The notes: a model not told the origin generated them from the letters alone. 64,000 bases of DNA from Candidatus Sulfopaludibacter sp. SbA3 (GCA_945865815.1 CAMBFR010000004.1:1-64000), one strand, 5' to 3'. Positions 36,715 to 55,644 are shown, numbered from the stretch's first letter. Made by a program: numbers and translations.

Positions 36715-37935
36715 TCAGGTGATGACGATGCGATCTGGAGGCACGCTCAGACCGTATCGAGACTCCCTGTATGGGCCGGAGTTATCGATCAAGTAACGAT
36801 CCATCGCGCCCACCGAGTTGAACGCACGCTTGATCTTGGAGAAGGCCCCAAGGTACGGCCTTGCAAGAACGTCTGGCGCTGTAGTTTGAGTGGCAAACGT
36901 TCTCAGCGTCGCGACGAATTTGAAGAACCTCGGCAGGTCTTTAGGGTGTGTGTCCTTGATGTCGGCAAGGGACCTTACCCTCCCTTTCGGTGGCATAATT
37001 CGGCGAAAAACGTTGTCTAGATCCTCTTCGCAGATTTCGCTGAGAGCGACGAACCCTTCTTTACCGTGCGCCTTCTGGCGAAAGATGGCGAACAACGTGT
37101 AGATGAACAGGTGGGGTTCGGTCAGTCGGACTTTGTGAGAGCCCACGGTTACGGTTCTCTCCCGCAGGTCTATGGTGACGTCCTGTGGCACCTCGATCAG
37201 GTTCAAGTCTTCCTGAGTCTGTCTCACAAGGTCGCTGTAACGAAATTGAGCAGTGTCCAATTTATCCGAGAGAAGTCCGCGAAGCCGGACAAAGGGAATC
37301 TCTGCCAGGAAGATTTGCGCCGCCTTGGTCGAAATCTTTCTCCCATCCTTCGCCTCGAGAGTTCGATGACGAGGCGGTTTATAGTAGAAAGTGGGTTTAG
37401 CTCCCTCGAAGTCATCGTTCACCAGCACATGCGACAGTGTGTCCAGCGGGCGAGCGAACAGTTGGAATGCCGCAGTGAGGTATATCCCCATGGTTTTCCG
37501 TCCGCCCGCCACCGAGGCATGAATCGGAGTACCAGGGTCTTGAGTCCACTGCCTCACGTACCTGCATATCGAATCCCCTGCGAACTCGTTCTCTTCCAAC
37601 GTCCGAATGTCCGGGAGAGCGGTGCCATCCGGGGTCCGCAATAGAGAGATGGTCGACTCATTGAATTCGATGTCGGTGGGATCGATTCCAAAGTCGCTGC
37701 AGAACTCATAGTACTTGCCGGAGTCGCGGTCCAACAGAACCTTGAGAAGCTTCTCCTGGCCGGCCACCGTTGTAATGACGCGAATCTTTTCGACGTGTTT
37801 CCGTGGCTCCTCCTGAGTCAGCACATACAGCGTCTCCGTGATGATCTGGGGGGTAAGTCCAGCGACACAGAGCATGATCAGCTTTTGCTCCTGCTGCTCC
37901 CTTTTGGTCTGTCGCCGAGGCGCCTTCTTAGTCAC
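36715..37935 (-). CDS. CARF protein of the NE0113-like family with C-terminal wHTH-like region
   Basis: MLCVAGLTPQIITETLYVL; HASVAGGRKTMGIYLTAAFQLFARPLDTLSHVLV; TVGSHKVRLTEPHLFIYTLFAIF. Confidence 0.8.
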   Translation of the reverse strand: MTKKAPRRQTKREQQEQKLIMLCVAGLTPQIITETLYVLTQEEPRKHVEKIRVITTVAGQEKLLKVLLDRDSGKYYEFCSDFGIDPTDIEFNESTISLLRTPDGTALPDIRTLEENEFAGDSICRYVRQWTQDPGTPIHASVAGGRKTMGIYLTAAFQLFARPLDTLSHVLVNDDFEGAKPTFYYKPPRHRTLEAKDGRKISTKAAQIFLAEIPFVRLRGLLSDKLDTAQFRYSDLVRQTQEDLNLIEVPQDVTIDLRERTVTVGSHKVRLTEPHLFIYTLFAIFRQKAHGKEGFVALSEICEEDLDNVFRRIMPPKGRVRSLADIKDTHPKDLPRFFKFVATLRTFATQTTAPDVLARPYLGAFSKIKRAFNSVGAMDRYLIDNSGPYRESRYGLSVPPDRIVIT

Positions 37936-38458
37936 CTTTGATGGTCTCCGCGCTGAGCGTGAATGCCCGTACATAGCCTTTGTTCTCCCACATATAGACC
38001 TGGACTGGCACCCAGTTGTCGAGAAGCGCTCCGATGCCCGCCGCAAGGGCGTACGGCCCACCATAAAAGAGATGCACTTCCCGGATGTCGGATTTCTTGC
38101 GAAGTTCATCGATGTCGCGGCGAATCTCATGAAGGACCATGAGGAAGTCGGCAGGCGGTAGGTGGCCGGTCTTGTCGTAGCTCACTACTAGCGGAATTCT
38201 GGCCTTCCCCTCGACGATTCCGAAGTGGCTCTCAAGGAATCCCTGGACCGAGGCGGCGATATGCGTGCCGACGCCGATGGAAATGGCGACGCTGCCGTCT
38301 GCTGGTTTCACCTGCAGCATCTTGTTGCGCCGCCGGTATTCGCCGCGAGCGCGCAGGAAGGCCACGATGGCCCAAATCACGCCCACCACCTGGAGCACCC
38401 CCAGAATATTGGCGAGCCAGGCGATGGAGTCTCCGGTGTTGTGCAGCCACTCAAACAT
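37928..38458 (-). CDS. Membrane-anchored SAVED-like protein, putative cOA effector
   Basis: N-terminal TM IAWLANILGVLQVVGVIWAIVAFL; VAISIGVGTHIAASVQGFLE and VHLFYGGPYALAAGIGALLDNWVPVQVYMWENKGYVRAFTL. Confidence 0.7.
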   Translation of the reverse strand: MFEWLHNTGDSIAWLANILGVLQVVGVIWAIVAFLRARGEYRRRNKMLQVKPADGSVAISIGVGTHIAASVQGFLESHFGIVEGKARIPLVVSYDKTGHLPPADFLMVLHEIRRDIDELRKKSDIREVHLFYGGPYALAAGIGALLDNWVPVQVYMWENKGYVRAFTLSAETIKGD

Positions 38459-38475
38459 AGATTCTCCCGTGCACG

Positions 38476-39573
38476 CTACAAGCGGTTGCCGAGTTTATCC
38501 AGAACAAATTGGTCTCCCTCGTAGTGGCCAAAGATTCGTTTCGCTCCCTGATCCGGCCCGGCGTCCAACTCGTGTGTCGAAGGCAGTTCGGGATCGCCCT
38601 TTAGTTGCTTGAGGTCGAGGGATCGCCGGTCCAGGTTGGTTTCGAGGTACTGGGCCAGGTGATCGATTTTCTGGTTGATCAGCGCCATCCAGTCAGAATC
38701 CAGGTCTCGAAGAGATTCTTGAAACGTTTCGCCGAAACGGATCTTCAAACTGGGAGAAGGCCAAAGCCTGCCGCGATAAATCTCTTTCCGGCTTTGCTCC
38801 CAAACCAGATTTCCCCATGGCGAAAGGGCCGTTTGACCGGCGACGGTCATCAGCAGAGTTTCGGGCACGCCGTCGGTATGTGCGACACCTAGGCTCGCGC
38901 CAAGGCGGCGAAACACCTGCAGATGCTGACGGACGGTATCGTTGGCCGTCAGTTTGATTGGCAAGCGGGGAATGCGCATCAAGTCGTTGGCTTCCTGGAA
39001 GAGGTAGATCACTTCATCAGCGTAGAACATTGCGATCGTCTGGAGGAACCCCTGAACGCTCTTGAATCCGCCGGTGAGATTGAAAATGATCCGATAGCCC
39101 CGCTCCCGATATCCCGGCAACGTTTCTTCGCTCCATCTCACGAGCTCCGACAGAGCGAGTTGGAAAGCCTCCAAATCCGCTGTTTGGAGATCTCTCTGTC
39201 GAATCACGTTTACAGACGCCCCCTGCTTTTTGAACCAGGCCTCGATAATCCTGGCCGTAGCTTCCCCCAGCCAGGTGTCGGTACAGAGCAAGATGTGATG
39301 GCTTCGGTCCGCCGACGCCTTTCCTCCGTAGAAGCGGATGAGCGCATTGAGTTCCGCCGACATTTTGGAGACCACGACGAGGTCCCCTGCGAGCAACTCT
39401 TCTTGGACCCGAGCCAGCAATTCTTCAGCCCACGGTCTATCGCAGTCAGGCACTTCCTCGCGATGTTTCAGGTTGGACAAACGAACAAGCTGCTGCCGCC
39501 GCTCGGGCTCCCGCGCCGCGTTCGTCAAGAGACTGGTACCGCACGTGGATAGAATCAGATCGCGAGATTGCAT
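38476..39573 (-). CDS. CARF-domain protein (APE2256/TIGR02619-like), putative cOA effector or ring nuclease
   Basis: LILSTCGTSLLTNA N-terminus; YRIIFNLTGGFKSVQGFLQTIAMFYADEVIYLFQ; start MQSRDLILS. Confidence 0.8.
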   Translation of the reverse strand: MQSRDLILSTCGTSLLTNAAREPERRQQLVRLSNLKHREEVPDCDRPWAEELLARVQEELLAGDLVVVSKMSAELNALIRFYGGKASADRSHHILLCTDTWLGEATARIIEAWFKKQGASVNVIRQRDLQTADLEAFQLALSELVRWSEETLPGYRERGYRIIFNLTGGFKSVQGFLQTIAMFYADEVIYLFQEANDLMRIPRLPIKLTANDTVRQHLQVFRRLGASLGVAHTDGVPETLLMTVAGQTALSPWGNLVWEQSRKEIYRGRLWPSPSLKIRFGETFQESLRDLDSDWMALINQKIDHLAQYLETNLDRRSLDLKQLKGDPELPSTHELDAGPDQGAKRIFGHYEGDQFVLDKLGNRL

Positions 39574-39584
39574 GGATTCCCTAT

Positions 39585-39886
39585 TTAGGCTGCGCCGAGG
39601 TGTAGGATCAGCGACATATTCCAGGGGAGGCATCCACACTTCTTTGTTCCCTTGGCTTCATCCACGGAGGCGACAGCGCGTCCCTTCTTCACTTCATTCA
39701 CGGCCCAAAGAAACAAGGCGAGGGCGTTTCCGACCAACTCCTCATTGGTCTTGATGCCCGCTCCCTTCACGTTCTCGATCTCTTGGGTCTTTTCCTCGAA
39801 CTTACCCAGAAGGTATCCAAATCGGGTTGCTTGTAATCCATGAGAGCGTTCCGAACCGACTCAGCCAGAGAGACCAGCAACGTCAC
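39585..39886 (-). CDS. Small operon ORF, apparently split by a -1 frameshift
   Basis: GTGA overlap start at 39886 gives VTLLVSLAESVRNALMDYKQPDL; coding continues in the -1 frame as GYLLGKFEEKTQEIENVKGAGIKTNEELVGNALALFLWAVNEVKKGRAVASVDE. Confidence 0.4.
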
Positions 39887-40812
39887 AGGTCCCCCCTATC
39901 GCCCCTCTTGAAGCTCAACCAGACACCGGGCCAGTCGTCGTGGAGGCGAGACTCTTTCTCCCAACAGTCAGCAGGCACGCGAACTAGCGTCGACCGGCGG
40001 TCACCACTATCTCCAAACGATCCAACACCTCTTCCCGCGAAGACGATTCGCTCAACCCCAGCGCGCTGATTTGCCCTGAATACAAGAAACCGATCATGAA
40101 ACAAGTTTCGCTCTGTCTTGGTCGTTGGATGGAGCTTGAATTCCCATTGAATGGTGGTCTCCCGGAATACTTGGTTTGCACGCTTAATCCCTTCAGCTCG
40201 GCTCCCTGGGAGGCTTGCCTCCCGTTCGCCGACATCCAGCGGAGACCAGCTACCGCTGCCGGTAACATGCGAAACGCCGTTCCGGTTTGCAAACAAAGCA
40301 AGCTTCCGCAAGGCAGGAGCGTTTCCGTCGGACAAGATGTATGGGTCGATGACATCGACTGTCCGGTGCGCCCAACACGCAAGTCTTAACGCCTCAAGAG
40401 CCTGTTCTCCGACCTTGCAGTGAGCGTAATGAAAGGGAAGCGTAGAAAACTCGCTCCGCTCCCATTCGGACATTGGAATCGCTTTCGGCGCGAGTCTGGC
40501 CGTTTCTCCGGGAGGAATTCTGGCCGTTGGGATCATTCCGCTTTCAATCAACATTTTCAGCTTCCGAAGTCGATCTGTCGGCAATCGTTTTTTTTCCAGA
40601 GTCGCTATGTGCACACGAACGGAGACGCAGGCGTTTCTATGGTTTTCCATCAATACACCGAAACACCCAAGGTAGCGGAGCAGCGCATCCCATCGCCCTT
40701 CGTTGGGTTCCTTTAGCCCGTATTCCACTAGCTGGTCGATCGACCATGGGATGCGGACGAACAGACTGCCGAACTCCGCTTCCTTGCTTAGGTATCGTCC
40801 GAGAGTCACCAC
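39883..40812 (-). CDS. Putative PLD-like-fold protein
   Basis: AHRTVDVIDPYILSDG and NLFHDRFLVF...FAGRGVGSFG; 7-bp overlap with the ATPase gene. Confidence 0.4.
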   Translation of the reverse strand: MVTLGRYLSKEAEFGSLFVRIPWSIDQLVEYGLKEPNEGRWDALLRYLGCFGVLMENHRNACVSVRVHIATLEKKRLPTDRLRKLKMLIESGMIPTARIPPGETARLAPKAIPMSEWERSEFSTLPFHYAHCKVGEQALEALRLACWAHRTVDVIDPYILSDGNAPALRKLALFANRNGVSHVTGSGSWSPLDVGEREASLPGSRAEGIKRANQVFRETTIQWEFKLHPTTKTERNLFHDRFLVFRANQRAGVERIVFAGRGVGSFGDSGDRRSTLVRVPADCWEKESRLHDDWPGVWLSFKRGDRGDL

Positions 40813-42338
40813 CTCATCCTTTCAAGCCACTCGCCATACAACAAATTGTCTCGCTGAGGAAAAAATCCATCGGGCCAGGGATCCATGAATTCTCCGTCCC
40901 CAGCCATTCGAATTCTTTGCACGCAGGTAACGCCGTTCTCGACATTCACGGCCAGGAGCGTCACATTTTCCGGATCGAGAACCCCTTCCCGCACTAACTG
41001 CTGGGCCGCGAGAACTAAGTACTCGCTATGGGTCTCGAGGATTGCCTGCGGATTTGCACTTCCGGCTTGTGGGGCACTCCGGCGCAAAGGCTCAGAAAAC
41101 AACCGCAACAGCTCCACCTGCCAATCGGGATGCAGGTGGAGTTCCGGCTGCTCTACAAGCAGGGTCTGCGGCTTGGTCCCCCCAAGCACCGCCGCCCATT
41201 CGGCCAGGATTGGAAGCAGTTGACTTACTCCGAAACCTACATCGGGTACGCCGACAGTTGCGCCGTGGGGACGTGTGTCTAAAAGGAAGAGTTCCACGAG
41301 TGCATCCAAAGTAAGCAATGGCCGGTTGATTACTTGGTAAGGAACGCGCATCGACTGCAGCATGTTGTTGATCGCTTCCTCCCGATCCGGAAATCTGAAG
41401 AGGATGTCACCCAGCCGTTCTCCGCGCGAACCTACCTCATCGTCCGTGGAACTATCGCGGGCATAGATCCGCTGGCCCGGAACACGGGTTGGGCCGATGT
41501 AACGCAGGTTTGCGAACTTCTTCGCAGATCCGAAAAAAAGGTCGTCAATCTCCCGGGTGAGTGCCGCGACGAACGGAGAATCCTCACTAAGCAGCGCAGC
41601 GTGGCTTTGTGTCCAACTCTCCCGGGCCTGCTTCAGTTCGGTGCCAAGCGTCTCCGCGGCCTGAACGGTAGACAGCCGGCCAGCACGCTTCTCCGCCTCG
41701 ATTATTTGCTCCACCGTGGGAACACTCCCCCTCTCGATACGCCGCGTATTCTCTGAAGGGTCCAAACGAATGACCGGGATGGCTGATCTCCGCTCCTTGT
41801 CTGCAAAGGCGCGCCAGCCAGCCACAAGGGGCGACGCCTGTTCAGCTTCCGAGTTTGGTGGTGCTATCTCAAGGAACGGGATCTCGATCTGGCGAGCCCT
41901 GTCATTGGTAACTTGGGCGCCGCCGAGGAGAATGGTTCCATTCCGGCCCCTCAGCGTGCAAGCTGTGAGTGTTCCAGCTTCGGGCAATCGGTTTTCATCA
42001 ATGTCCCCGGTAGCGTTCAGCAAATAATCCGCTTCCCATGTAAAGTCTGCGGACTTCTCACCTTCATCCCATGAAATCCCTATTTCCACGGGAACGTTAC
42101 GGTGTCGATGAGCAATGTTTCCGAATCTGCCCAACGTTACCAATCGCCCGGCCGGGCGGAGTTCGATGACGGCAGCAGGGCCGGATTCCCAACTCTGACG
42201 CAGCATGAGGAGAGCCTGCAGGATCGACGATTTCCCGGCAGAGTTCCCCCCCAACATAATCGTTAGGGGTCCCAGGGGAATCCGGGTTTGCTGGTCCCCA
42301 AAGCGCTTAAAGTTTCTCAGCCGAAGTTCAGAAATCAC
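40806..42338 (-). CDS. AAA ATPase, DUF3696-like, OLD/SMC-like
   Basis: Walker A GGNSAGKSS; Walker B LLVEQPELHLHP; ETHSEYLVLAAQ; C-terminal PWPDGFFPQRDNLL. Confidence 0.85.
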   Translation of the reverse strand: MISELRLRNFKRFGDQQTRIPLGPLTIMLGGNSAGKSSILQALLMLRQSWESGPAAVIELRPAGRLVTLGRFGNIAHRHRNVPVEIGISWDEGEKSADFTWEADYLLNATGDIDENRLPEAGTLTACTLRGRNGTILLGGAQVTNDRARQIEIPFLEIAPPNSEAEQASPLVAGWRAFADKERRSAIPVIRLDPSENTRRIERGSVPTVEQIIEAEKRAGRLSTVQAAETLGTELKQARESWTQSHAALLSEDSPFVAALTREIDDLFFGSAKKFANLRYIGPTRVPGQRIYARDSSTDDEVGSRGERLGDILFRFPDREEAINNMLQSMRVPYQVINRPLLTLDALVELFLLDTRPHGATVGVPDVGFGVSQLLPILAEWAAVLGGTKPQTLLVEQPELHLHPDWQVELLRLFSEPLRRSAPQAGSANPQAILETHSEYLVLAAQQLVREGVLDPENVTLLAVNVENGVTCVQRIRMAGDGEFMDPWPDGFFPQRDNLLYGEWLERMRW

Positions 42339-42342: not shown

Positions 42343-44604
42343 TCAACGCCATTTCATTTGAACGTTTCCAAGGTCGCCACCAGCTGTGACAACTACGGTG
42401 TATTTCTTCCCGACGGCGGCATCCTCCGGAGCCACTCCGAAGGCAACAACGCCTATTGCGGCGGGGCTCAGGACCTTGGCTTGCCACTTTCCTTTCTTGG
42501 ACAGCCCGGTCAGTTCGACCTCGATTCGGGTTCCACTCTTGATGCTCTGGGAGCGTGGCGCTTGGGTTGCTTCCCTCCAGGCCCCAACAGACTGCTTCTG
42601 CGTCCCGGCATCCCGTGTGGCGCTTCCAGGTTCAGCCGGCGGTCCGGCCAGCGTAATGGCGTGTCCTGCGGCACGGGCTTCCACTGCCCAGCGTTCAGTC
42701 GTTCCCGCCGACGGCAATGCGCGGCCGGCCTGTTTGGCGCTCTGGAATTCATTCCGGACGACAGGATCGTCGATGCGCATGTGCAGGCGATGCGGACTAC
42801 TTTCATCAAGCGTATGCGCCAACGCCCGGAGTTCGAAAAGCTCTCGGGAGTGCTTCCAGCCTCCCGGAATGTGGTTTTCGTCAGCGAACTTCTCCATGAG
42901 GCTCTCAAATTCCGCGCGAGCCTCATCGCCATTGCTAACCCCGATCTCCCGGACGTTCTCCAGGTTCATCTCAGCCACTTCGAATCGGCAGCGGCCATAA
43001 CCAAGAGATCGAGCCATTCCGAGCGTGTGCCGGGCTTCGTTGTCCTTGCCGAAATCCAAAGCCCAGAGCAGTGCTCCCAGTTCCGCCCTGCGTACGTTGT
43101 GAAGGCGAAGTCGTAAGAGGAAGGAGGTGCTTTCCGGTAACGGATTCAGCCGGGACGCGACGCGCGACACGTCCATCGCGCGACCATCGCCACGGGTCGG
43201 AAGAGCCGGACTGACGGGACCGGGCTGGGGCCGATACCGCTTCCATCCACGAACGCGAACATCTGAATCCATCCACGTCTTCCATTTCGGCTTGTTATTT
43301 AGAGCAGCCGGCTCGGCACCGGGTGCCGCCGGCCCCTGCTCGATATATGCCGGATAGTAACTAGCTTTGGGCGAACCAAGGACAACGTCGACCAAGGCCA
43401 CCGGTTTCGGATTGCCTTCCGCGCGAGCGAGGCCAAAAGAGACCCGCCCTTTGAGCAGCCGACCTTTGAATGTATCCGATTCCGAAGTCTCATCGATTCC
43501 TGGCGGGACATGCCCGAACAGCGTCTGGGCGAAGTCGAGAATGCCGTCGGTCTTCTTTAGCGCGGGTTGGCAGTTCAAGACTCCGTCCTTCACGCTATGG
43601 TCATATGGCAGACGAAACATCATGGCGAGACCAAACGCGCGGAGTTCGCCATTGGGATGCGCCAAAAAGAAGACAGGAACTTTCTTCCCCTCGTCGTAGT
43701 TCGATTTCCAGTACTCCCACTCCTCATTCGGGAGGAACTCGCGGCCGCGTGCATTCTGCTGGCCGCGGTCACTATGAACGAATTCAAAGCCCTTGAAGAT
43801 GTCGCTGCTGACGGGGACAGGTGTGCCGCTGCCATAAAACACGAAATCGTGATGCTTAGCCTGCCCACCGCCACGGCGAGGAGGTTGGTCCGGTCTCCAT
43901 GATGAAGGCTGGCCGGTAAACACCAGTGTCGCAGCAGTTGATCCCGGGCCAACAACTCGACCGAAACCGTAAGGTAAGGACACGCCCTGAACTGGTCGCA
44001 GTTTCTCTACTTCAACCATCACATCCAGGCTCGCCTTTCCCCATGCCCTGTACTTGCTCACCGAAGACTGGCGGTTGCCGGGAGAGAATCCCGGTACCTG
44101 CCGCTCCTTCGCGTAGGACATAAGGCGGCGATACTCGATCTTCGCGAAGTGGCATGGGGTAATCGTTGCTACCCTCTCCGATCCCTCACCTCGTTGCAGC
44201 CACCCTGCGATAACTTTCGGCATCGGTTGGCGGCTGCCATCCGGGGCGGACATGATCTCAGCCATGTGCTGGCCGTACACATCCTGATTGTGAAGGTCGC
44301 GCACACCGTAGCGGTGATCGTTGAACCGCGACATCCAGCCGAATGTTGCGATTTCAATGATGTTGCGGATGGCGCCGCGAATCGAACTTCCAGGAATGGC
44401 ATACACCGCGTCGGGCGTGCGAAAGAATTCGTCCTTATTACTTCCTCGGACGAAAATTGGCGTCTCGGCAATAAGCCTCAGGTCAATGGTTCCCGATAAG
44501 CCGTCCTCGAAGGGTAAGTCCTGCGAAACGGCTCCCTGCCACTCCGGAAGGAAGACATGCTCTGAGAGCGGTACGAAACCATAAGGTGCGTGAACAGAAC
44601 TCAT
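42343..44604 (-). CDS. TIGR03986-like large RAMP protein
   Basis: AETPIFVRGSNKDEFFRTPDAVYAIPGSSIRGAIRNIIEIATF; ATGA overlap with upstream gene. Confidence 0.85.
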   Translation of the reverse strand: MSSVHAPYGFVPLSEHVFLPEWQGAVSQDLPFEDGLSGTIDLRLIAETPIFVRGSNKDEFFRTPDAVYAIPGSSIRGAIRNIIEIATFGWMSRFNDHRYGVRDLHNQDVYGQHMAEIMSAPDGSRQPMPKVIAGWLQRGEGSERVATITPCHFAKIEYRRLMSYAKERQVPGFSPGNRQSSVSKYRAWGKASLDVMVEVEKLRPVQGVSLPYGFGRVVGPGSTAATLVFTGQPSSWRPDQPPRRGGGQAKHHDFVFYGSGTPVPVSSDIFKGFEFVHSDRGQQNARGREFLPNEEWEYWKSNYDEGKKVPVFFLAHPNGELRAFGLAMMFRLPYDHSVKDGVLNCQPALKKTDGILDFAQTLFGHVPPGIDETSESDTFKGRLLKGRVSFGLARAEGNPKPVALVDVVLGSPKASYYPAYIEQGPAAPGAEPAALNNKPKWKTWMDSDVRVRGWKRYRPQPGPVSPALPTRGDGRAMDVSRVASRLNPLPESTSFLLRLRLHNVRRAELGALLWALDFGKDNEARHTLGMARSLGYGRCRFEVAEMNLENVREIGVSNGDEARAEFESLMEKFADENHIPGGWKHSRELFELRALAHTLDESSPHRLHMRIDDPVVRNEFQSAKQAGRALPSAGTTERWAVEARAAGHAITLAGPPAEPGSATRDAGTQKQSVGAWREATQAPRSQSIKSGTRIEVELTGLSKKGKWQAKVLSPAAIGVVAFGVAPEDAAVGKKYTVVVTAGGDLGNVQMKWR

Positions 44605-45095
44605 AGTGCCCCCCAACCCGTGAACCGTGAAACATACAGACTCCACGGTCTGACACCATTGTCTTGATCCGGGCCGCGAGTCCAAAAGGTCTTGTAATTG
44701 AGTTTCAGATCAGGCTCTGTGGAGACGAAAACATCTTCGAGTGCCAAAGCTTCTTCCCCGACTCCCTCACTGATGCGTGTCCATCGCAACCGGCCGCCAT
44801 CACGCCAAACATGAATGCTACTAGTCTCCGATTCTTGAATCTCGGCGGACAGAGCAAACGCACACTCCGCGGCGCCTGGAGCAGACACTAAGGCTTCTTG
44901 CTCGGTGACGTCGTACCACTTGCCTTGAACACACCGAAGGACGCTACTGGGGAGGCATACCCAGGCTTCCGCAGTTCTCGATAGTTCGATCGCCACCTCA
45001 TCCACAGACGGATTTCCACCTGACACAGACACATGCGCTAACCCGACATTGCCAACCTTGGCGAGCCAATCCGCGGTGCTCATCGGTTCATTCAT
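44601..45095 (-). CDS. csx19: Csx19/TIGR03984-like type III-D protein
   Basis: Position between RAMPs; C-terminal WSLYVSRFTGWG; family call from context plus motif. Confidence 0.55.
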   Translation of the reverse strand: MNEPMSTADWLAKVGNVGLAHVSVSGGNPSVDEVAIELSRTAEAWVCLPSSVLRCVQGKWYDVTEQEALVSAPGAAECAFALSAEIQESETSSIHVWRDGGRLRWTRISEGVGEEALALEDVFVSTEPDLKLNYKTFWTRGPDQDNGVRPWSLYVSRFTGWGAL

Positions 45096-46530
45096 TTGCC
45101 ACCTTCTTGATCCAACTCCCATCGTCACTCCAGGCGACTTTACCTCTGCAGAACCCGTGCCCGCGGGCAGCGCCTGCGCCTATCGCGAGTTTGCCTTTGC
45201 AGAGATCATCGAGCGCTTTTTCGAACGCCGCGATGGAGTGACGCGGAGGCTTTGATTCACCAAAGTGCGTATCGATCACGACTTCCAGGGCAATGCTTCC
45301 ACCGTAGAGCGGTCTCTCATCGAACAAAGCGCCATCCATCGGTCCCTGGGTGAATCGATCCAGACTTACGTGATCCAAGCCGCCGGACCTTGGTTGTTCG
45401 ATCCAACCATCAGAGATGAAGACTCGTCCGGCAGTCCTGGGAAAAGACGCAGTCTCGCTGTTGTTCTCATTTCCGAACCACCAGAGCACGCCATCCCACT
45501 CCGCGAGAGCTTCCCTGATCTCAAGCCATGCCTTCGGACTCTCCGGAACTTCGACGAACGTACCCTCAAGCCGACGTCCGTGGAATGCGAGCCGATGCCG
45601 CAAAGCGCCCTTGATGCCGGATGCCGGAATTGAATGCTGCGATTCCACCACTTCTCCAGTGCCGGCCTTCCACACAATCCGCGCCTCTGTTACCGGCAAC
45701 GCCTCGTAGGCGCGGTCTCCACGTAAGTGTTCGTCGAGAACGGGTTCGCCACCGCCGAAGAACCAGAAGTCTTCGGGATTCAAAGTGACCGTGGCCTTTA
45801 CCCAACGGTCTTCGCCTTGCGGCTTGAGTGCGGAAGGCCCACGAAAGCGCAGCACGCCGTCGGGTATCGGACGGGACAAGTCTCGAGGAAGGTTTCTAAA
45901 GCGACTCCGGTCCTCCGATTTGCTCAGGTCGAATTCGTCCTTCCAGGAATCAACAGTGGCAAACGTACCCAACCCCCGGCGAGACTTCCCTCCGAATCGC
46001 AGAACGCCCGAATCGAGGCGCGCAAGGAGGCTGTCCAGTATCGTGGCCCCCTCCTCATGAACAAGAAGTTCGAACGTGAAGCGGGCTCCGGCGGGAACCG
46101 CGAGTTCGTCAAACTTTCCCCGTCCATCAACGACGCCGCGAGGGTTGATCCGGGCGTGATCACGTTTCACTCCGGCTCGCAGGCACGACAGCACGGGATC
46201 ACCCGTGAGGTTGGATTCGGAGTCGCACCGAAACGGCGTGGGGAGATTGTTCCGATCGTGTACCTGTCCCCAGGAAATCTCAACCGTCGAACTTTCGCCT
46301 CCGTTCTGATCCTGATAGCCGAACAACTCTCTCGCTCGATTCTCCGGAAATGCGTGCCGCAGCACCCCGGCAATGCTGCTGCCGGGCAGGGCTGGAAGGC
46401 CGTTTGCGTCGACGACAAACACGGCATCCCGAAGGTCATCCTCCGAACCAGATGAGACCAAGAAGGCCGTCCTGAATTCAATCGTGACGCGAGCTACCGA
46501 AAATATGAGCCCACGAGCCGCCTTAATCAC
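45088..46530 (-). CDS. Type III RAMP protein with two RAMP-like regions
   Basis: LPALPGSSIAGVLRHAF; SIPASGIKGALRHRLAFHG; GAGAARGHGFCRG. Confidence 0.8.
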   Translation of the reverse strand: MIKAARGLIFSVARVTIEFRTAFLVSSGSEDDLRDAVFVVDANGLPALPGSSIAGVLRHAFPENRARELFGYQDQNGGESSTVEISWGQVHDRNNLPTPFRCDSESNLTGDPVLSCLRAGVKRDHARINPRGVVDGRGKFDELAVPAGARFTFELLVHEEGATILDSLLARLDSGVLRFGGKSRRGLGTFATVDSWKDEFDLSKSEDRSRFRNLPRDLSRPIPDGVLRFRGPSALKPQGEDRWVKATVTLNPEDFWFFGGGEPVLDEHLRGDRAYEALPVTEARIVWKAGTGEVVESQHSIPASGIKGALRHRLAFHGRRLEGTFVEVPESPKAWLEIREALAEWDGVLWWFGNENNSETASFPRTAGRVFISDGWIEQPRSGGLDHVSLDRFTQGPMDGALFDERPLYGGSIALEVVIDTHFGESKPPRHSIAAFEKALDDLCKGKLAIGAGAARGHGFCRGKVAWSDDGSWIKKVANE

Positions 46531-48025
46531 GGTTTTCCCCCTTGCCCGGACGCACAACCCGAGCAGCAAGCATTTCCAGTCGAATGGCGAGTTGCTCGGG
46601 CGGTTGCCGCTTCATCCAACTCATCATGAAATCCCGAGCTGAGTTCTTTCCTGCGCGTACGGCCCAGCGGAGTGCACGGGCTCCACCGTGTTGGGCAGAG
46701 GCGCTTCCCTTCTCTCTGAGAGTCGGGGCAGGACGGGTGCCCCGGTCGAACTGCTCATTGAGGTATTGAGCGCCGTCGGGTTTGCGCTGAGCTGTCTGAG
46801 CGAGGGTCCTGATCCAACCCCATTGTGCGTTTCGGAGCTTGAAGTGGGCAAAGTCGTTAGCATCTCTTGTGATTTCCAGCAAGGCTTCTTCGCGGCTGCG
46901 AGTCTCACTGGCCCGCTGGTGAAGCCAGATTGCCAGCGGATCGATGATTGCCTTTTCGGTCGCAGTGGGTGGATCTCCTGGTTTCTCGAAGGTCACGCTT
47001 CTCAGTTTCAGCAAGGCAGGTTCGACATACACCTGCCCCAGACCATCCTGACGAAAGTCACCCACGCCGCTGCGAGTCGTCTCGACTACAGTCTGCCCTG
47101 AGACCTCAGGCGCCCTGTCGTTGCGCTCAAAAACCATCACAGACCCTGCGGCAATTACCTGCCGATCGAGGTCATGACGCCGGCGATGTCCGTTGAAAGG
47201 TGAGTATCGCCGTGTTCGAAGAAAAGTCCTTTTGAGATCGAGCGTCCATCCGTTGGGCAGCCCGAAGTCTGCCGCCTCCGGCAACAACCTCACCGCACCG
47301 GTATTCCTATTCCGAAGCGCAAGATCGGATGCGCACAGAAATATAGTGCGGTCTCCGTTGAACGAGCGTTCCATCGGAGCGGTTTCCGAGATCTGTACAC
47401 GTTCAATACTCACTTCTCCAAACTCTGCCGACCGAGAACGCCCGATGAAGATCGGCCTGCCCATCAGTGCGGCTTCGATGTTGTGAAGATGCTGGATATC
47501 CTCCGCATCAACCCTCGCGACGAAAGTCTGACCACCTGCCAAGGACTCGATGCCGAACAGCAAACCTTCCCGCGCCTTTCCGTGCTCGTCTACGGATGTG
47601 CGCATCGTTGAGCGGCGATCGCGGCTAAGAGTGCGCACCGAACGGACAGTGTCTCCCGCCGCGTCCAATACCCAGCCCGACCGGTACTGTTCATACTGCG
47701 TCGTCGATTCTCTGTCGACTAAGGCGAGAGTCACATCAGGCGCGTCTTCTTCGGCGCGTTTCTCTCGATGAAAAGCGAGCGGAGCAGGAATCGCGGGAAC
47801 CCCATCCAGCTCGGGCACGCCGTTGCCAAAACGAACCGCGCCGGAATGGAACATTGCAAAAGCGTCCTCTCTGCTGAGCCCCTCCCGGTAGAGTTGCTCG
47901 GCTGCCGCGCCAAGAAGTGCGGCCCCAGGGATGTAGTCCAGTGAGGATGCGCCGCCCACACTCGCATTTCGCTCCGTCAGGACGACGTCGCTCTTTAGGG
48001 TAATCTTCAGCGTCATAGAGGTCAT
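46523..48025 (-). CDS. csx10: Csx10-family RAMP (type III-D)
   Basis: ASSLDYIPGAALLGAAAEQLYRE; IFIGRSRSAEFGEVSIERV; starts in ATGA overlap. Confidence 0.75.
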   Translation of the reverse strand: MTSMTLKITLKSDVVLTERNASVGGASSLDYIPGAALLGAAAEQLYREGLSREDAFAMFHSGAVRFGNGVPELDGVPAIPAPLAFHREKRAEEDAPDVTLALVDRESTTQYEQYRSGWVLDAAGDTVRSVRTLSRDRRSTMRTSVDEHGKAREGLLFGIESLAGGQTFVARVDAEDIQHLHNIEAALMGRPIFIGRSRSAEFGEVSIERVQISETAPMERSFNGDRTIFLCASDLALRNRNTGAVRLLPEAADFGLPNGWTLDLKRTFLRTRRYSPFNGHRRRHDLDRQVIAAGSVMVFERNDRAPEVSGQTVVETTRSGVGDFRQDGLGQVYVEPALLKLRSVTFEKPGDPPTATEKAIIDPLAIWLHQRASETRSREEALLEITRDANDFAHFKLRNAQWGWIRTLAQTAQRKPDGAQYLNEQFDRGTRPAPTLREKGSASAQHGGARALRWAVRAGKNSARDFMMSWMKRQPPEQLAIRLEMLAARVVRPGKGENRD

Positions 48026-48687
48026 GGCGTCACCAAGTGCGCATCGACTCGGCCGAAACCACGGTTACGGTGACTTCCCAAGGTGCGCAGAAAAAGCCTT
48101 ACGGATTCATCAATGGCGTCCCACGGCGTTGCATTACTGCCGGTGATGAAGGCGTGGAGGGTCATAGGCACGACCACTTCGATAGTTCGGAGGGTCTGGT
48201 CTTTGGCAATCCCGGTATCCCTGCAGATCGCGGTTTGGGAAACATACCCGTAGAGCTCGGGAGTAACTCTCGACTCGTCCTCTCTGTCACGCCAGCGAGC
48301 CCAACTGGACCAGTCGTCCTGCTCGTTGCGTGTTGCCCCAAGGTGGGCGCTTGAGAATCGCAGGTCACCCTTCTTAGTTCCGAAGCGTGCCTGCTCCAAG
48401 GCCCGTACCCGCTTGAACTCATTGTGCTCAGGTGATTCGCCCTGCTTGGGGGGCCCGGTCCCAAAGAGATCTTCCAACGTTGCTGAATCCAGAACGCCAG
48501 CCGCTGCTCCAACCCGGCATGCCTCACGCACCAAGCCCTTGACTGTACGGCCCGGCAGAAACGGCAGTTTGTCTTCCTTACCTTTCCGAACGACCGCGTC
48601 CGCGGTGACACCATCACCACGGCCCGTCCCGGGGTGCCACCAGGTCAGAAGGTTGAATGCCAGAGTTCGCTGAACGGATGGACTCAT
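48022..48687 (-). CDS. Csm3-like RAMP
   Basis: DGVTADAVVRKGKEDKLPFLPGRTVKGLVREA; GSHRNRGFGRV; overlaps cas10 stop. Confidence 0.8.
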   Translation of the reverse strand: MSPSVQRTLAFNLLTWWHPGTGRGDGVTADAVVRKGKEDKLPFLPGRTVKGLVREACRVGAAAGVLDSATLEDLFGTGPPKQGESPEHNEFKRVRALEQARFGTKKGDLRFSSAHLGATRNEQDDWSSWARWRDREDESRVTPELYGYVSQTAICRDTGIAKDQTLRTIEVVVPMTLHAFITGSNATPWDAIDESVRLFLRTLGSHRNRGFGRVDAHLVTP

Positions 48688-50081
48688 GTCGTCCTCCAAA
48701 GGCGTAAGTCACCGGTGCGCTTTTCAGATTGCAGATTGATCCACATCAACGCGTCCGGAATGGGAGTTCGCATATCACTCCAGCCGGTCTGAACGCCAAC
48801 GTCAAGATCTTGAAGAGCCCTATCAAAGTGTTCCATGGCTCCCTCGTCTGCAACCTCCCTTAGCCGTTGCCATCGTGCTTTCGCCCTCGTCTCGGACACT
48901 CGGCATTCACCAACCCAGTTGCGAAGCGCTCCACGAGGCAGGTTGCTCGCTGCGGCGCACAAGGTATCCAGCTTCGGAAGGTGTTCCAAAAGCCACGGTC
49001 CATGAGCGAGTACGTGATCACTTCCGCATTTGAGCTCGGAATCTCTGATCTCCTTCCATTTCAAGTCCGCATCGGCGGTGGTAACGCGATGGAACAGCAG
49101 ACCGCTCCTCTCGCGGCCAAGTTCTTTCTTTGTGGCTCTGCAGAGATCCTCCGCAAGTGCGTGGGCTTGCGCGAAAGGCCACCCGGACTTCACGAGCGCT
49201 ATCCCCGCGCTTGCCGTAATCCCCCTGGTTTCGGGATGTTTGTCTGCCTTCATCCTGAAATCGCGAAGATAGAACTCCGCAAACGGTATTGCAAATTTTC
49301 CATGCACAATGACCGTCAGGTCGTCGCCGCCCAGAACGATAGCGCGAGCCTGTATCCACTGAGCATCGTCTGATTCCGGATGATTCACCAAGGCGTCAAA
49401 GGCGGCTTTTGCCGCGCTCTCCGTGACGGTGCGCAGGGAAGCAGAAAATTTCTTTAACCCTGCGAGATCATTCCCATACTTCAGCACATGCTGGCCGACT
49501 CCGTTACCGTCGATGTGAATGACGGCAATGTATCCCTCGTCGAAGAGGTCGGCATCTTCGATAAATTTTCGATTCTCACTCGGTGGAAGCAAAATCTAAC
49601 GCAGCGAATCTCCGTCCCTTTTGAAGCTTGCAAGCTTCTCTCGCACGATCCGATCTTCGAGCCCGTCCTTCTCTCCTATCCGCACTGCAGGGAGACCCGT
49701 TCGACCGCTGCGGTTGGCCAGCGGACCAGCAACCGGCAGATCGGGAGTTAGGACGTTCCGTGCATCGCCAAGCTTCGGATAGACGTCCCTCATGTTCTCG
49801 GCCCATGCCTGCACAATCTGAAGCCCCGGAGCACGCTGGGATACAAAAAAAGGCCAATGGTTTGCAAATGCCTGGAGATTCTCGGCTCTATCGAAGAGCA
49901 TCGTCGCGCCTCCTGCGGCCGCAAAACATTCTTTTGCGTGACATTGTCCCGCAAGCTCCTGAATCTCTTTGTCGAGCTTGACGATGATATTGCTGCCGCC
50001 GCAGAGCTCGCGCAGGCGGTCGGACTGGAGAATCCAAGCCTGAATACCCTTTGCTTCCGTTCGGTAAAAGAAATCAGCCAT
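48684..50081 (-). pseudogene. cas10: cas10 (HD-less) interrupted by one in-frame TAG; parts 49596..50081 and 48684..49592
   Basis: GIQAWILQSDRLRELCGGSNIIVKL (part 1); YIAVIHIDGNGVG and palm LGGDDLTVIVHG (part 2). Reverse complement around 49596 reads SLR-TAG-ILLPPSENRKF in a single frame. Confidence 0.85.
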
Positions 50082-50224: not shown

Positions 50225-51103
50225 ATGTTCGTCAGTCTAGCCGCAGAAGTTGAGATCTTGCAAGAGACAGTCATTCCTCTCGCACATGGCGAGGCCATGC
50301 ATGCGGAATTCTTACGCCGTGTGGCGAACCTCGATCCGGCGGTTGCGACCCACCTTCACGGAGAGGCAGATGGGAGACCACGCCCCTATACGCTATCCGG
50401 ACTTCAGGTCGAACAGCCGGTCGTTAGAGATGGACGGGTCTCTCTGCGAACAGGAGACAGGGCGTGGTTCCGTCTAACCGCGATGGGGGAGTTGCCGTGT
50501 CAGGCGCTTCTGGCAATGTCGGAGTCTACGGATCGGTGGCTTATCCGGGGCAGGGGGTTCGAGAGTGAGGCTCACGTACGGCGATGGTGCGCGCACGCTG
50601 AAGAGCATCCCTGGGCAGGAATGGTAAGCACGAAAGAGTTGCAGGAATCTGCATGGGCGGCGGCGGAATCTGAACCGAAGGGATCGCTTCTAGTCTTTCA
50701 CAGTGCGACGGCGTTTGAAGAGTCGGATAAGGGATGGGCCTCCGGGATGCCGCTGCCGGTGCCCCGTCTGGTGTTTGGAAGTCTGAGGCGGCGGGCGCTC
50801 GAATGCACGTCTTTCGGTGAGCCGGCCAACGCGGCAGAACTCATCGAAAGGCACATTGCTCTCGGCCGGTTTGGGCCACTCTTGTCGCAGATACTCTTCT
50901 TCGAAAAGCACAGGTTTCAGCGGTCCGGGTTTACCGGAGAATGCGAGTTTCGTTTTGACCGCGAATTGCCTGAGCCGATTCGGGTCTGGTTTCACCTGCT
51001 CGCGAATCTGGCCTTCTATAGCGGTGTTGGCCGGGAGACCAGTTGGGGCATGGGACAGATCCGCCGCGAACCTGAGGACAAGTTTTCCTATCGCGGTCCG
51101 TAA
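50225..51103 (+). CDS. cas6: CRISPR pre-crRNA endoribonuclease Cas6
   Basis: C-terminal Gly-rich loop YSGVGRETSWGMGQIR; adaptation operon next to the array. Confidence 0.8.
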   Translation: MFVSLAAEVEILQETVIPLAHGEAMHAEFLRRVANLDPAVATHLHGEADGRPRPYTLSGLQVEQPVVRDGRVSLRTGDRAWFRLTAMGELPCQALLAMSESTDRWLIRGRGFESEAHVRRWCAHAEEHPWAGMVSTKELQESAWAAAESEPKGSLLVFHSATAFEESDKGWASGMPLPVPRLVFGSLRRRALECTSFGEPANAAELIERHIALGRFGPLLSQILFFEKHRFQRSGFTGECEFRFDRELPEPIRVWFHLLANLAFYSGVGRETSWGMGQIRREPEDKFSYRGP

Positions 51104-51144
51104 GAACTCGGGTGAATCACGCGTTATCTCTATATAGAAGGGAG

Positions 51145-51714
51145 ATGCACGTGGACGATTCATCGAACAACAACCAATCGGCGCTGGACCGGCTGCGAGG
51201 CGGGGACGACGTTCAGGACGATTCCTCGGAAACGGGGCTGGAGCGGGCCAACCAGGAACTGCAGGTACGGGCCGATCCGAGGCGCGTAACGCCCGGAAAG
51301 ATTGTCTGGCCGTGGTCGCGCGAGGCGCGGGCCCGTTCGGCGGCCCGGGACTTGAGTGTCGAAGCGCAGTTGGATATTTTCAAGGACGATCTCCGCGCCA
51401 TTCGGATCGCGCGCGAAGTGCTCAGCCGGGCGGCGACGATGCGGGCCGTTCAGGCGGCAGAGACGGCCATCTTCGAGATTCGGTGCCTCGGTGAGAGCGC
51501 GCGTTTCGCTGTCGTGAACCGCACGCACCTCGAGATGACGCGGCAGTTTCTTTTGCAGCTCGAAACGATCGAAGGATTTCGCGGACGCGTCACACCGGAA
51601 ATTCTCGACGCGCTGAAGGAACGGGCCCTGTCCGAGTTTTCCACGCGAATGAACCGGGCGTCGAAGTCGGACTTCGAATTCTCGAAGGACGACATTCTCA
51701 AGATCAAACCCTGA
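51145..51714 (+). CDS. Unknown protein between cas6 and RT
   Basis: Start MHVDDSSNNN preceded by an SD-like aagggag; charged, helix-rich; no family recognised. Confidence 0.6.
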   Translation: MHVDDSSNNNQSALDRLRGGDDVQDDSSETGLERANQELQVRADPRRVTPGKIVWPWSREARARSAARDLSVEAQLDIFKDDLRAIRIAREVLSRAATMRAVQAAETAIFEIRCLGESARFAVVNRTHLEMTRQFLLQLETIEGFRGRVTPEILDALKERALSEFSTRMNRASKSDFEFSKDDILKIKP

Positions 51715-51725
51715 GCGGCGCAGCA

Positions 51726-52865
51726 ATGACAGACCTTCTCAAGATTGCGGGAATGGCTGAGGTCCCCGGCGTCGTCTTGGCAACCGAACTTGACCTCCGC
51801 GGCGCGTGGGAGCGGGTTCACAAGAAGGCCGGAATGCCGGGCGCGGACGGCGTTACGACCAGCCGTTTCGGCCGCTCGGCCGAAACCGCCTTCAGCAATC
51901 TCGAAGCAGATCTCGCAAACGGACGGTACCGGCCGTTGCCGCTTCGAATGGCGCAGCTTGAAAAGAAGGCCGGAGGCGGCCTGCGGCTTCTTCTGGTTCC
52001 GCCGGTGGTGGACCGTGTGGCGCAAACCGCCGCGGCGCAATGGCTCGGCAGGAAGTGGAACCCCGCCTTCGATCAGGCCAGCTATGCCTATCGCCCGGGC
52101 ATGGGTGTCCGCGATGCTCTCCACCGGCTTGGCGAGTTACGCGATCAAGGATTCCGTTGGATTCTCGACGCGGACCTCCGGTCCTTTTTCGATTCGATCG
52201 ATCACGATCTTCTCCTGGCCCGGCTGCGGCGCTGCCTCGGAGAGCGTTCGCCGATGGCCGGATGGATACAGTCCTGGATCCGCGCCACCGTGTGGGACGG
52301 CGCCGAGCTGTTGTGCGTGGAGCGCGGCGTCCCGCAGGGCTCGCCGCTGTCCCCGATCCTCGCGAACTTCTACCTGCACGAATTCGACGCGCGAATGCGC
52401 GCGGCAAAGATGCATCTCATCCGGTATGCCGACGACTTCCTTCTGCTGGCGCGAACCCCGTTCGAACTGGAGGAAGCGCGGACGCTCGCAAAGGACGTCT
52501 TGAAGGACTTGAATCTCGAACTGAACGACGAGAAAACGCGGACGGTGACCTTCGAGAGCTGCTTTCGGTTTCTTGGAGCGGAGCTGCAGAAGGACTCGAT
52601 CCTGTTGCCGTTCGAAAAGAGAAAAGAACCGAAGCGCCCTGCCTACATCGCGCCGGTCATGCCGCCCGCCCTGCTGCGGGCGTTTCGGGCCGGGGATTTG
52701 AAGGCGTCACGGCCACTGGTCTGGAACGGATCGGCCGGAAGGATGCGCGGACCGGAACCGGCGCCGCCGGCGCCACCGCAACGTTCGAAACCGAAGGCGC
52801 ACGAAGTTCTGGCGGGCGCGACGCGCACGGCTTCGTTGAGCTTGTTGAAAGGGAGTGGGAGATGA
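51726..52865 (+). CDS. CRISPR-associated reverse transcriptase, not fused to Cas1
   Basis: ILDADLRSFFDSIDHD; RGVPQGSPLSPILANFYLHEFD; IRYADDFLLLA; LELNDEKTRTV; Pro-rich C-terminal tail. Confidence 0.9.
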   Translation: MTDLLKIAGMAEVPGVVLATELDLRGAWERVHKKAGMPGADGVTTSRFGRSAETAFSNLEADLANGRYRPLPLRMAQLEKKAGGGLRLLLVPPVVDRVAQTAAAQWLGRKWNPAFDQASYAYRPGMGVRDALHRLGELRDQGFRWILDADLRSFFDSIDHDLLLARLRRCLGERSPMAGWIQSWIRATVWDGAELLCVERGVPQGSPLSPILANFYLHEFDARMRAAKMHLIRYADDFLLLARTPFELEEARTLAKDVLKDLNLELNDEKTRTVTFESCFRFLGAELQKDSILLPFEKRKEPKRPAYIAPVMPPALLRAFRAGDLKASRPLVWNGSAGRMRGPEPAPPAPPQRSKPKAHEVLAGATRTASLSLLKGSGR

Positions 52866-54028
52866 GCCGGGAAGAGACTTCATTGGTGGTGAATCTTGCG
52901 GCTGGAGAAGGCTTCGGGCCGCATGAGGAAAACCTCCGTCTGCGGCGTCTTCAGGCGGTGGACGCCGCCGTGCGCGGCAGCTTGGGAAGCGCGAACACGC
53001 GATTCCTGCACATCACAGAGCAGGGATCCATGCTTCGCCGCTCGGGCGAACGCGTGGTCGTGACGAAGGAGGACGCCAGGCTGCTGGAGATTCCGTTGAT
53101 CAAACTGCAGGGAATCCTCCTGTATGGGAATGTTCAGGTCACAACGCAGTGCATCGGCAGTCTGCTCGAAGAAGGCGTGTGGGTCAGCTTCCTGTCGCGT
53201 GGCGGCAGGTATCGCGGCCGGTTGCAGCCGCCGCACGAGCGCGGAGGCCGGTTGCGGCAAATGCAGTGGCATCGCTCCAAAGACGCGGCGTTCTGCCTCC
53301 GGTTCGCGCAGGCCGTGGTGCGGGGCAAGATCCTCGGGCAGAAGCTGGTCGCCGCGGCGTATGCCAAGAACTATCTGGCGGAGACTCTCGGTGAGGGACA
53401 TACCGTTCTGCGGGATTCGCTGGAGCGGGTCGACTCCGTGCAGAGCCTGGACGAATTGCGCGGGGTGGAAGGCAATGCCAGCCGCGCGTACTTCGATTTG
53501 TTCCGGCGGTGGAACCGGTCCGAGCTGCCATTCGAAGGGCGCCACAAGCGAACGGCGTCCGATCCCATCAACGCGCTGCTGAACCTGGGCTACACGCTGC
53601 TCACGAGAGAGCTGGAAGGATTGATCGAGTCCGCCGGCTTCGATCCAACCGTCGGCTTCTATCATCAGCCCGACGACGACCGGCCGTCACTCGCATGTGA
53701 CTGGGTCGAAGAATTCCGGCACGTGGTCGTGGACCGGTTGGTCTTGAGGCTCATCAACACCGGAAGCATTCAGGCCAGCCACTTTGAGGTTCATGAAGAC
53801 AAGGGCGGGATTCGTATCCGGCCCGAGGGACTTCGCAAGTTTCTCGTGGCGTATGAGAAAACCGTGATTGGCGCGGAGAGCGAAGAGAAGCAGGCCTTGA
53901 GGTTTCGAGCTGTCTTCCTCAACCGCCTGGCGGCGTTGCTGGACTCCGTGACGCGCGCGGCCGGGCCCTACCGGACGCATCTCGAAATGGCAGAGGAAAA
54001 TGCGGCAGGCGTCCGATGCTCTACATAG
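52862..54028 (+). CDS. cas1: CRISPR integrase Cas1
   Basis: ATGA overlap with RT; GVEGNASRAYFDLFRR; NALLNLGYTLLTRELEGLIESAGFDPTVGFYHQPDDDRPSLACDWVEEFR. Confidence 0.93.
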   Translation: MSREETSLVVNLAAGEGFGPHEENLRLRRLQAVDAAVRGSLGSANTRFLHITEQGSMLRRSGERVVVTKEDARLLEIPLIKLQGILLYGNVQVTTQCIGSLLEEGVWVSFLSRGGRYRGRLQPPHERGGRLRQMQWHRSKDAAFCLRFAQAVVRGKILGQKLVAAAYAKNYLAETLGEGHTVLRDSLERVDSVQSLDELRGVEGNASRAYFDLFRRWNRSELPFEGRHKRTASDPINALLNLGYTLLTRELEGLIESAGFDPTVGFYHQPDDDRPSLACDWVEEFRHVVVDRLVLRLINTGSIQASHFEVHEDKGGIRIRPEGLRKFLVAYEKTVIGAESEEKQALRFRAVFLNRLAALLDSVTRAAGPYRTHLEMAEENAAGVRCST

Positions 54029-54291
54029 TTTGCTACGACATTTCTGATGACAGCGCAAGGACCCGAATGTCCGATAAGCTTCTGGATTTTGGCGTCCGCA
54101 TCCAGGAAAGCGTTTTCGAGTGCGTCCTCGATCCGTATTCGTACGTCCGTATGATGCAATCTTTGGACAAGGTTCAGATCGCCAAAACCGACCGGCTCCG
54201 CGTCTATAAGGTGTGCCAGACCTGCACGGAGGATATTCGCATCTATGGTCCCGGGGAAGTGACCTGTGACCCGGACTATTACCTGGTATGA
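54016..54291 (+). CDS. cas2: CRISPR-associated endoribonuclease Cas2
   Basis: LYIVCYDISDDSARTRMSDKLLDFGVRIQESVFEC. Confidence 0.93.
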   Translation: MLYIVCYDISDDSARTRMSDKLLDFGVRIQESVFECVLDPYSYVRMMQSLDKVQIAKTDRLRVYKVCQTCTEDIRIYGPGEVTCDPDYYLV

Positions 54292-54532
54292 CGGCAGATA
54301 CGGCCCAAAAGGAGCGATTCGCATGGAGGGTCAATCATTTATGGGGTTTCCGAAAATCGGCCTCCGATGGCCGAGGGTTACGCGGATGCTAAAACTCGCT
54401 CCGAATGAACAGTTTGTCGGGAAGGAAGTAGCGCTTGAGGTGTCCTGCGCCATATGGAACGAAAGCAACGAATGCGATGTACGGAAACCGGTGCTACAAT
54501 CCGTGTGCTTTCAAGGACGTGGAGACGCCGCT
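54292..54532 (+). promoter_or_regulatory. CRISPR leader; candidate extended -10 (tgcTACAAT) with TACAAT at 54495-54500
   Basis: Non-repeat region between cas2 and repeat 1; TGnTACAAT about 33 nt upstream of repeat 1. Confidence 0.5.
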
Positions 54533-55644
54533 GCGGCGAGATTGGAAGGCGGGCAACCGCACTGAAACTCAGAATCGGCGACGCATATCACTGAAGTATC
54601 AGCGGGCGGCGAGATTGGAAGGCGGGCAACCGCACTGAAACATGCTGGTTCCGCTTCGTGATGTTGAGCATATGTTGCGCGGCGAGATTGGAAGGCGGGC
54701 AACCGCACTGAAACAATACTCCCAGGCTTGTTCCACCTGAATAGACTGGCGGCGAGATTGGAAGGCGGGCAACCGCACTGAAACTCGGACCTGACATCCA
54801 CCTGTCCTTCATAACCCAAGCGGCGAGATTGGAAGGCGGGCAACCGCACTGAAACCAAGTAAAGCTTTTTTCGTACTCATATTTACCCCCCTGCGGCGAG
54901 ATTGGAAGGCGGGCAACCGCACTGAAACTCTTTTTCTGCTACTGGCATTAAGATTGTGCACATGCGGCGAGATTGGAAGGCGGGCAACCGCACTGAAACC
55001 GGAATCTAGACTAGCGAGGAAAACCTATCGCTGGCGGCGAGATTGGAAGGCGGGCAACCGCACTGAAACGCGCCAGTGAACGCGGTGAACGCGAAACGTG
55101 CATTGCGGCGAGATTGGAAGGCGGGCAACCGCACTGAAATAAGTCTTGTCATTTGCAAGTAGTCCTTTACTAGTGGGCGGCGAGATTGGAAGGCGGGCAA
55201 CCGCACTGAAACTCATCCTTAGTTGTGCTGTTTCCCTTGCTTTGGTTCCAAGCGGCGAGATTGGAAGGCGGGCAACCGCACTGAAACACAAGAACTGCGT
55301 CTCCGGGCGGTGATTCTGCCAAGCGGCGAGATTGGAAGGCGGGCAACCGCACTGAAACTTTCTTCCCTCTCTTCTTGAGTATATGACACATACGCGGCGA
55401 GATTGGAAGGCGGGCAACCGCACTGAAACGCGGCTCCTCCCGTGACAGCCAGCCACTCAAGCCAGCGGCGAGATTGGAAGGCGGGCAACCGCACTGAAAC
55501 TCTGCTCCATCGTATACATCGGGCATCTTCTCCCGGCGGCGAGATTGGAAGGCGGGCAACCGCACTGAAACTCATGGGTTCGATGTTGCCGGAAGAAGTT
55601 TGCCGCACGCGGCGAGATTGGAAGGCGGGCAACCGCAATGCAAT
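54533..55644 (+). CRISPR. CRISPR array: 16 repeats of 36 nt, GCGGCGAGATTGGAAGGCGGGCAACCGCACTGAAAC; 15 spacers of about 34-39 nt
   Basis: Repeat starts 54533, 54606, 54679, 54749, 54820, 54893, 54964, 55034, 55105, 55177, 55252, 55323, 55394, 55465, 55536, 55609; last repeat degenerate at its 3' end. Confidence 0.99.

Follow-up and report, generated by a model that had tools for sequence, protein, structure and literature searches.

Introduction

Reverse transcriptases (RTs) associated with clustered regularly interspaced short palindromic repeats (CRISPR) are reported to prime on RNA as well as on DNA and to supply Cas1-Cas2 (PMC10415136); the RT-Cas1/Cas2 of Marinomonas is reported to put 3' DNA tails on RNA protospacers and then integrate them (PMC11014452). 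In the relatives tested, acquisition of spacers from RNA depends on the RT (PMC5541045, PMC10415136, PMC11014452). Such RTs are found both fused to Cas1 and apart from it, and Toro and colleagues counted 14 of 110 CRISPR RTs as unfused (PMC5541045) and listed clades 9 and 13 as having separate genes (PMC6013744). Silas and colleagues proposed that adjacency of the two genes came before fusion and that fissions followed later (PMC5513706); whether RT-Cas1 fusion occurred once or several times, and whether an unfused RT is ancestral or split, is contested (PMC5513706 against PMC6013744). By word search, Acidobacteriota are not mentioned in the main text of PMC5513706 or PMC6013744. Here we describe a type III-D CRISPR-Cas locus in which an RT gene stands beside cas1 as a separate gene. 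It lies in a 64,000-nucleotide stretch of Candidatus Sulfopaludibacter sp. SbA3 (GCA_945865815.1 CAMBFR010000004.1:1-64000), referred to below as the window, whose source is a metagenome-assembled genome (4.34 Mb in 193 contigs) from the phylum Acidobacteriota.

Results

We read the locus as the adaptation module of a type III-D CRISPR-Cas system whose CRISPR-associated RT stands alone. Which genes it holds and in what order, how they overlap, their motifs, the subtype and the place in the trees are direct observations. Five separate genes on the plus strand between 50225 and 54291 encode, in this order, Cas6, an unassigned protein termed ORF200, the RT, Cas1 and Cas2 (Table 1), and the first repeat of a CRISPR array begins 241 nt downstream of cas2. 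The initial annotation, made from the sequence alone, had proposed a type III adaptation module linked to an RT, its components encoded separately in this order and divergent from the interference operon, and the RT catalytic motifs intact. The analysis bears this out: all five open reading frames (ORFs) are in place, cas10 starts at 50081 on the minus strand and cas6 at 50225 on the plus strand, DADLRSFFD and YADD are both present, and the RT gene adjoins cas1 in a locus whose divergent operon encodes Cas10, Csx10 (Cas5) and III-D Cas7 proteins, the set that defines subtype III-D. Absent from that annotation were the CRISPR array, the III-D identity of the effector genes and an in-frame TAG in cas10. 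Cas1 is present as a single copy in the genome, and Cas6 is the sole PF10040-family match there. Alignment shows the conserved catalytic residues of Cas1, namely E (GVEG), H (FYH) and E (WVEEF). Intact RT, Cas1 and Cas2 in a tight operon next to the presumed leader indicate, at the level of sequence, a module that would carry out RT-assisted adaptation.

The RT gene shares 4 nt (ATGA) with cas1, which in turn shares 13 nt with cas2. The RT and cas1 are in different reading frames, and the pair thus lacks the single frame that defines an RT-Cas1 fusion. The junction combines a good Shine-Dalgarno sequence with an exact ATGA overlap, which is consistent with translational coupling. Upstream, the cas1 frame stays open as far as 52040, and a single -1 shift would therefore yield an RT-Cas1 fusion. 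No -1 slippery heptamer was found near the end of the RT gene; the sole X-XXY-YYZ heptamer in the overlap of the open frames, CCCGGGC at 52095, falls within the RT core, and a fused product made by programmed frameshifting is not credible. Could a one-base indel in a metagenome-assembled contig have masked a true fusion? The fragmentation of the genome and a second anomaly at the same locus, an in-frame TAG in cas10, speak for such an assembly error, but the Shine-Dalgarno sequence and exact ATGA at the junction, the lack of any homopolymer of at least five nucleotides near it, and the existence of unfused relatives make it quite improbable.

The RT has RVT_1 as its sole domain and groups with the CRISPR RTs in a supported set (96/95 in the smaller tree, 98/93 in the larger); with its YADD-bearing RT domain and its place beside cas1 in a type III locus, it has the attributes of a CRISPR-associated RT. 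An AlphaFold model of modest quality, built from a seven-sequence input (predicted local distance difference test score, pLDDT, 65), finds its matches among RT structures, those of group II included. The best NCBIfam match is group_II_RT_mat (7e-71, under cut-off), as might be expected if the RT were the protein of a resident mobile group II intron that lies beside cas1 by chance. This reading was rejected, and its probability is close to nil: Rfam gave no match to an intron RNA near the RT, Pfam profile search found neither a maturase nor an HNH domain in it, the gene overlaps cas1 within the operon, and the approximately unbiased (AU) test rejected a grouping with intron RTs in the smaller set (p=0.0006) and in the larger (p=0.001). 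An affiliation with mobile group II introns was one outcome that the initial annotation had named as fatal to its proposal. Less fortunate was its implied likening of the locus to an unfused Cas6-RT-Cas1. The closest relatives, as established by a scan of the genome collection and gene maps, are acidobacterial RT-Cas1 fusions of ~700 aa without Cas6; grouping the RT with Cas6-RT-Cas1 proteins gave p=0.079 in the smaller set and p=0.014 in the larger, and together with the RT tree the latter value rejects that reading.

A class-wide search yielded three further loci with separate RT and Cas1 (L169, L170 and L172). The fused proteins are monophyletic in both the RT tree (96/93) and the Cas1 tree (100/96). 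In the RT tree the RT of the window is the sister of the fused clade (95/85), followed by those of the three remaining unfused loci (85/83). The Cas1 tree places both unfused lineages below the fused clade, with RT-less Cas1s outside, and the two trees concur on the kin of the window locus. One fused protein, L034, falls in the outgroup by its RT, and a placement of its Cas1 with the fused clade is rejected (p=0.0004); its fusion was therefore probably independent. The minimum number of changes in fusion state is two on the Cas1 tree and four on the RT tree. These tree positions favour an ancestral, pre-fusion state of adjacent genes at the window locus.

A different history is possible, though we doubt it: a frameshift in the linker may have split an ancestral RT-Cas1 protein, leaving the ATGA and a remnant of the linker on Cas1. 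The module would then work alike and its history alone would differ. Such a fission would account for the 45–48 aa N-terminal extension of Cas1, whose domain match begins at residue 49; about two dozen ordinary stand-alone Cas1s, in a comparison restricted to ORFs neither longer and multi-domain nor truncated, begin 3–8 residues ahead of the same domain point and the window Cas1 48. It would also agree with the open cas1 frame, one -1 shift from fusion, with the position of the fused L034 outside in the RT tree, and with the C-terminal tail of the RT (~65 aa), which is similar to the entire linker in certain fused relatives (for example L009 and L031, with 1 and 2 of 300 shuffles, respectively, scoring as well). 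However, the Cas1 extension shows no similarity above shuffles to the linkers of the fusions, the domains are ~113 codons apart here and ~45 in the fusions, so that a single indel is insufficient, and two unfused lineages branch off below the fused clade, with RT-less Cas1s outside. We prefer the pre-fusion state to fission because three unfused loci were found; the close relatives known before were all fused.

Other loci show further arrangements. The genome G439 holds two loci of the same lineage, L164 with a fused RT-Cas1 (834 aa) and L172 with RT and Cas1 unfused. The 834-aa RT-Cas1 ORF (L035:9935-12436, L164:445-2946) carries an in-frame RT insertion of ~110–120 aa after residue 83 (window numbering). 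Stand-alone RTs beside cas1/cas2 occur in other Acidobacteriota (L154:1-1611, L155:5478-6875, L156:3113-4540); these have an insertion of ~120–135 aa between residues 189 and 199 (window numbering) and form a separate RT clade (100/100). At L171:8945-10456 the RT, a member of the fused clade, runs directly into Cas2, the entire Cas1 part being absent, and genes of repeat-associated mysterious protein (RAMP)-type effectors adjoin it. At L038:1047-5770 the RT-Cas1 gene is in pieces, with ~2.6 kb resembling an insertion element between two RT parts, and at L042:532-4911 (Lentisphaerae) cas1 and cas2 are followed by a separate ORF of 1016 aa with an RT in its first third.

Table 1. Features of the CRISPR-Cas locus, in positions of the window
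Feature	Coordinates	Strand	Description
Cas6	50225..51103	+	292 aa; stand-alone CRISPR RNA endoribonuclease; PF10040 3.5e-13, above cut-off; PADLOC Cas6d 2.3e-16
ORF200	51112..51714	+	200 aa; unassigned, no family; likely start 51145 or 51151
RT	51726..52865	+	379 aa; stand-alone CRISPR-associated RT; RVT_1 1e-35; PADLOC 'RT' 2e-77
ATGA overlap	52862..52865	+	RT stop TGA 52863-52865; cas1 start ATG 52862-52864; AAAGGGAG just upstream
Cas1	52862..54028	+	388 aa; PF01867 7.9e-87, match from residue 49
Cas2	54016..54291	+	91 aa, full-length; PF09827 6.9e-19; TIGR01573 above cut-off
Presumed leader	54292..54532	+	Between cas2 and first repeat; assigned by position and by degenerate terminal repeat at opposite end
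CRISPR array	54533..55644	+	16 repeats of 36 nt, 15 spacers of 34–39 nt; repeat end ACTGAAAC
cas10 (III-D)	48684..50081	-	GGDD in C-terminal part; in-frame TAG 49596-49598
Cas7/Csm3-like RAMP (III-D)	48022..48699	-	PADLOC Cas7_IIId 2.8e-32
Csx10 (Cas5 of III-D)	46523..48025	-	PADLOC Cas5_IIId 3e-62; TIGR02674 5.3e-10, under cut-off
Double Cas7 RAMP (III-D)	45088..46569	-	PADLOC Cas7_IIId 1.9e-91
Unassigned protein of effector operon	44601..45128	-	175 aa; no family match
Cas7 RAMP (III-D)	42343..44685	-	780 aa; PADLOC Cas7_IIId 1.6e-119

ORF200 begins 8 nt after cas6 and ends 11 nt before the RT gene, and its G+C content by codon position (.64/.44/.75) resembles that of the RT gene and cas1. 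Because of this composition and the tight spacing it is probably a real coding gene of the operon, and its product may have a role in the module. The protein had no match in Pfam, NCBIfam, PADLOC or PHROGs, no credible relative in 396 genomes of the phylum, 61 relatives or IMG/VR, and a best PDB sequence match of E=0.31; phmmer found it in none of the related RT loci mapped. Its AlphaFold model is all-helical and, at pLDDT 59, too poor for a meaningful fold search.

The leader is placed on the cas2 side because a degenerate repeat sits at the far end of the array. The repeats are nearly identical, which suggests a maintained array, and the predicted fold of the repeat is no better than that of shuffled sequences, so that a repeat hairpin receives no support. 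Searched against their own genome, the spacers matched solely within the array itself; against phages they had no match and against plasmids noise only (E=9), and five spacer cores had no match in IMG/VR.

The divergent effector operon encodes, in order, Cas10, a Csm3-like Cas7, Csx10, a double Cas7, the 175-aa protein (without a match in the profile libraries, PADLOC and PHROGs included) and the 780-aa Cas7 RAMP. The cas10 frame, whose integrity matters to function and not to typing, is divided by the in-frame TAG into two same-frame pieces, of 161 aa and 302 aa, which match one PADLOC Cas10d model in order (2-147 and 174-433). The TAG may be a nonsense mutation or an assembly error, or the gene may encode a two-part Cas10. 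Taken with a split RT-Cas1, a nonsense codon here could be a sign that the locus is decaying and losing its function, and the long branches of the RT and Cas1 would suit such decay. Yet the catalytic motifs of both proteins are intact, Cas2 is full-length, the repeats are nearly identical and the reading frames are tight, and we think decay rather unlikely. Behind the effector operon, at 36715-42338 on the minus strand, lies a likely cyclic-oligoadenylate effector cluster with a CARF protein (NE0113), a 176-aa SAVED protein and a CARF-RelE; the same cluster encodes an NsnB-like AAA ATPase and an unassigned protein of 309 aa.

Discussion

The best overall explanation of these observations, to which we assign a probability of roughly 0.6, is a coupled RT/Cas1/Cas2 adaptation module of a type III-D system in the pre-fusion, adjacent-gene state. 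We propose that a single operon yields RT, Cas1 and Cas2 and that RT and Cas1, probably made together because the stop of the one gene overlaps the start of the other, would act as one complex. Cas1-Cas2 would insert spacers at the leader end of the array, beside cas2, and the RT would copy fragments of RNA, and probably of DNA too, into DNA prespacers, the use of RNA being suggested by analogy with the fused relatives. Cas6 would cleave the array transcript at the repeats and so supply the III-D effector. In evolutionary terms, a stand-alone Cas1 of Acidobacteriota would have acquired an RT as its neighbour, with the window locus and the three other unfused loci keeping that state while one sister lineage fused the genes, a direction of change that we infer.

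Several observations weigh against this explanation. A single clade of all the unfused loci is not rejected (p=0.14 for the RT, 0.09 for Cas1), nor is a single clade of the fused RTs together with that of L034 (p within 0.09-0.16); the RT and Cas1 branches of the window are long; and both the Cas1 extension and the RT tail, which resembles a linker, are compatible with fission as well. The stop in cas10 may leave interference impaired and the system partly inactive, and the protospacer searches, which came back empty, trace the spacers neither to RNA nor to DNA. This last point bears on the template. Since no spacer at this locus is traceable to RNA and CRISPR RTs prime on both kinds of template (PMC10415136), the RT might mainly copy or prime DNA and serve as a polymerase that makes DNA-derived prespacers, not as a sampler of RNA. 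We consider this unlikely, as in tested relatives the uptake of spacers from RNA requires the RT (PMC5541045, PMC10415136, PMC11014452) and type III effectors target transcripts. Doubtful to a similar degree is a more specific version of the pre-fusion explanation, in which the window keeps the adjacent-gene stage behind one RT-Cas1 fusion clade, with RT and Cas1 coupled through the ATGA and bearing linker-like extensions, and in which ORF200 belongs to the RT adaptation complex as one more component, specific to the lineage.

The locus is of value chiefly as a step that may have led to the RT-Cas1 fusion. In Acidobacteriota, fused and unfused forms of one lineage are found side by side, so that the order of events can be tested by sampling, and with RT and Cas1 split, each activity can be purified and mutated separately.

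As for known systems, the initial annotation overstated the novelty of the unfused arrangement, a class described already (14/110, PMC5541045; 'stand-alone CART', PMC10415136); unfused CRISPR RTs are known, and it is the acidobacterial series of fused and unfused forms that is worth following. Toro clades 1, 9, 13 and others (PMC5541045, PMC6013744) and the 'stand-alone CART' likewise have an RT beside, and not fused to, Cas1 in type III systems, but in other hosts (archaea, Chloroflexi and others). The Cas6-RT-Cas1 fusions (PDB 7KFT; Marinomonas) combine the same three activities in the same order as the window, but are fused and belong to another RT lineage (p=0.014) and another Cas1 lineage. 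The three unfused loci of the same class share separate RT, Cas1 and Cas2 with the window locus and neighbour it in both trees, whereas their RTs are shorter and without a tail and ORF200 is absent; L169 and L172 have Cas1 without the N-terminal extension, and a Csm4-like gene upstream in L169, recognized by inspection, suggests III-A in place of III-D. Closest of all in RT (36–44% identity) and Cas1 are the acidobacterial RT-Cas1 fusions (L009/L157, L027, L028, L031-L033, L035, L036 and others), which, like the window locus, have Cas2 and an array downstream and, in L157, a divergent effector operon; they have neither ORF200 nor a Cas6 fused to the RT, and they make as one polypeptide of ~700 aa what the window encodes in two overlapping genes.

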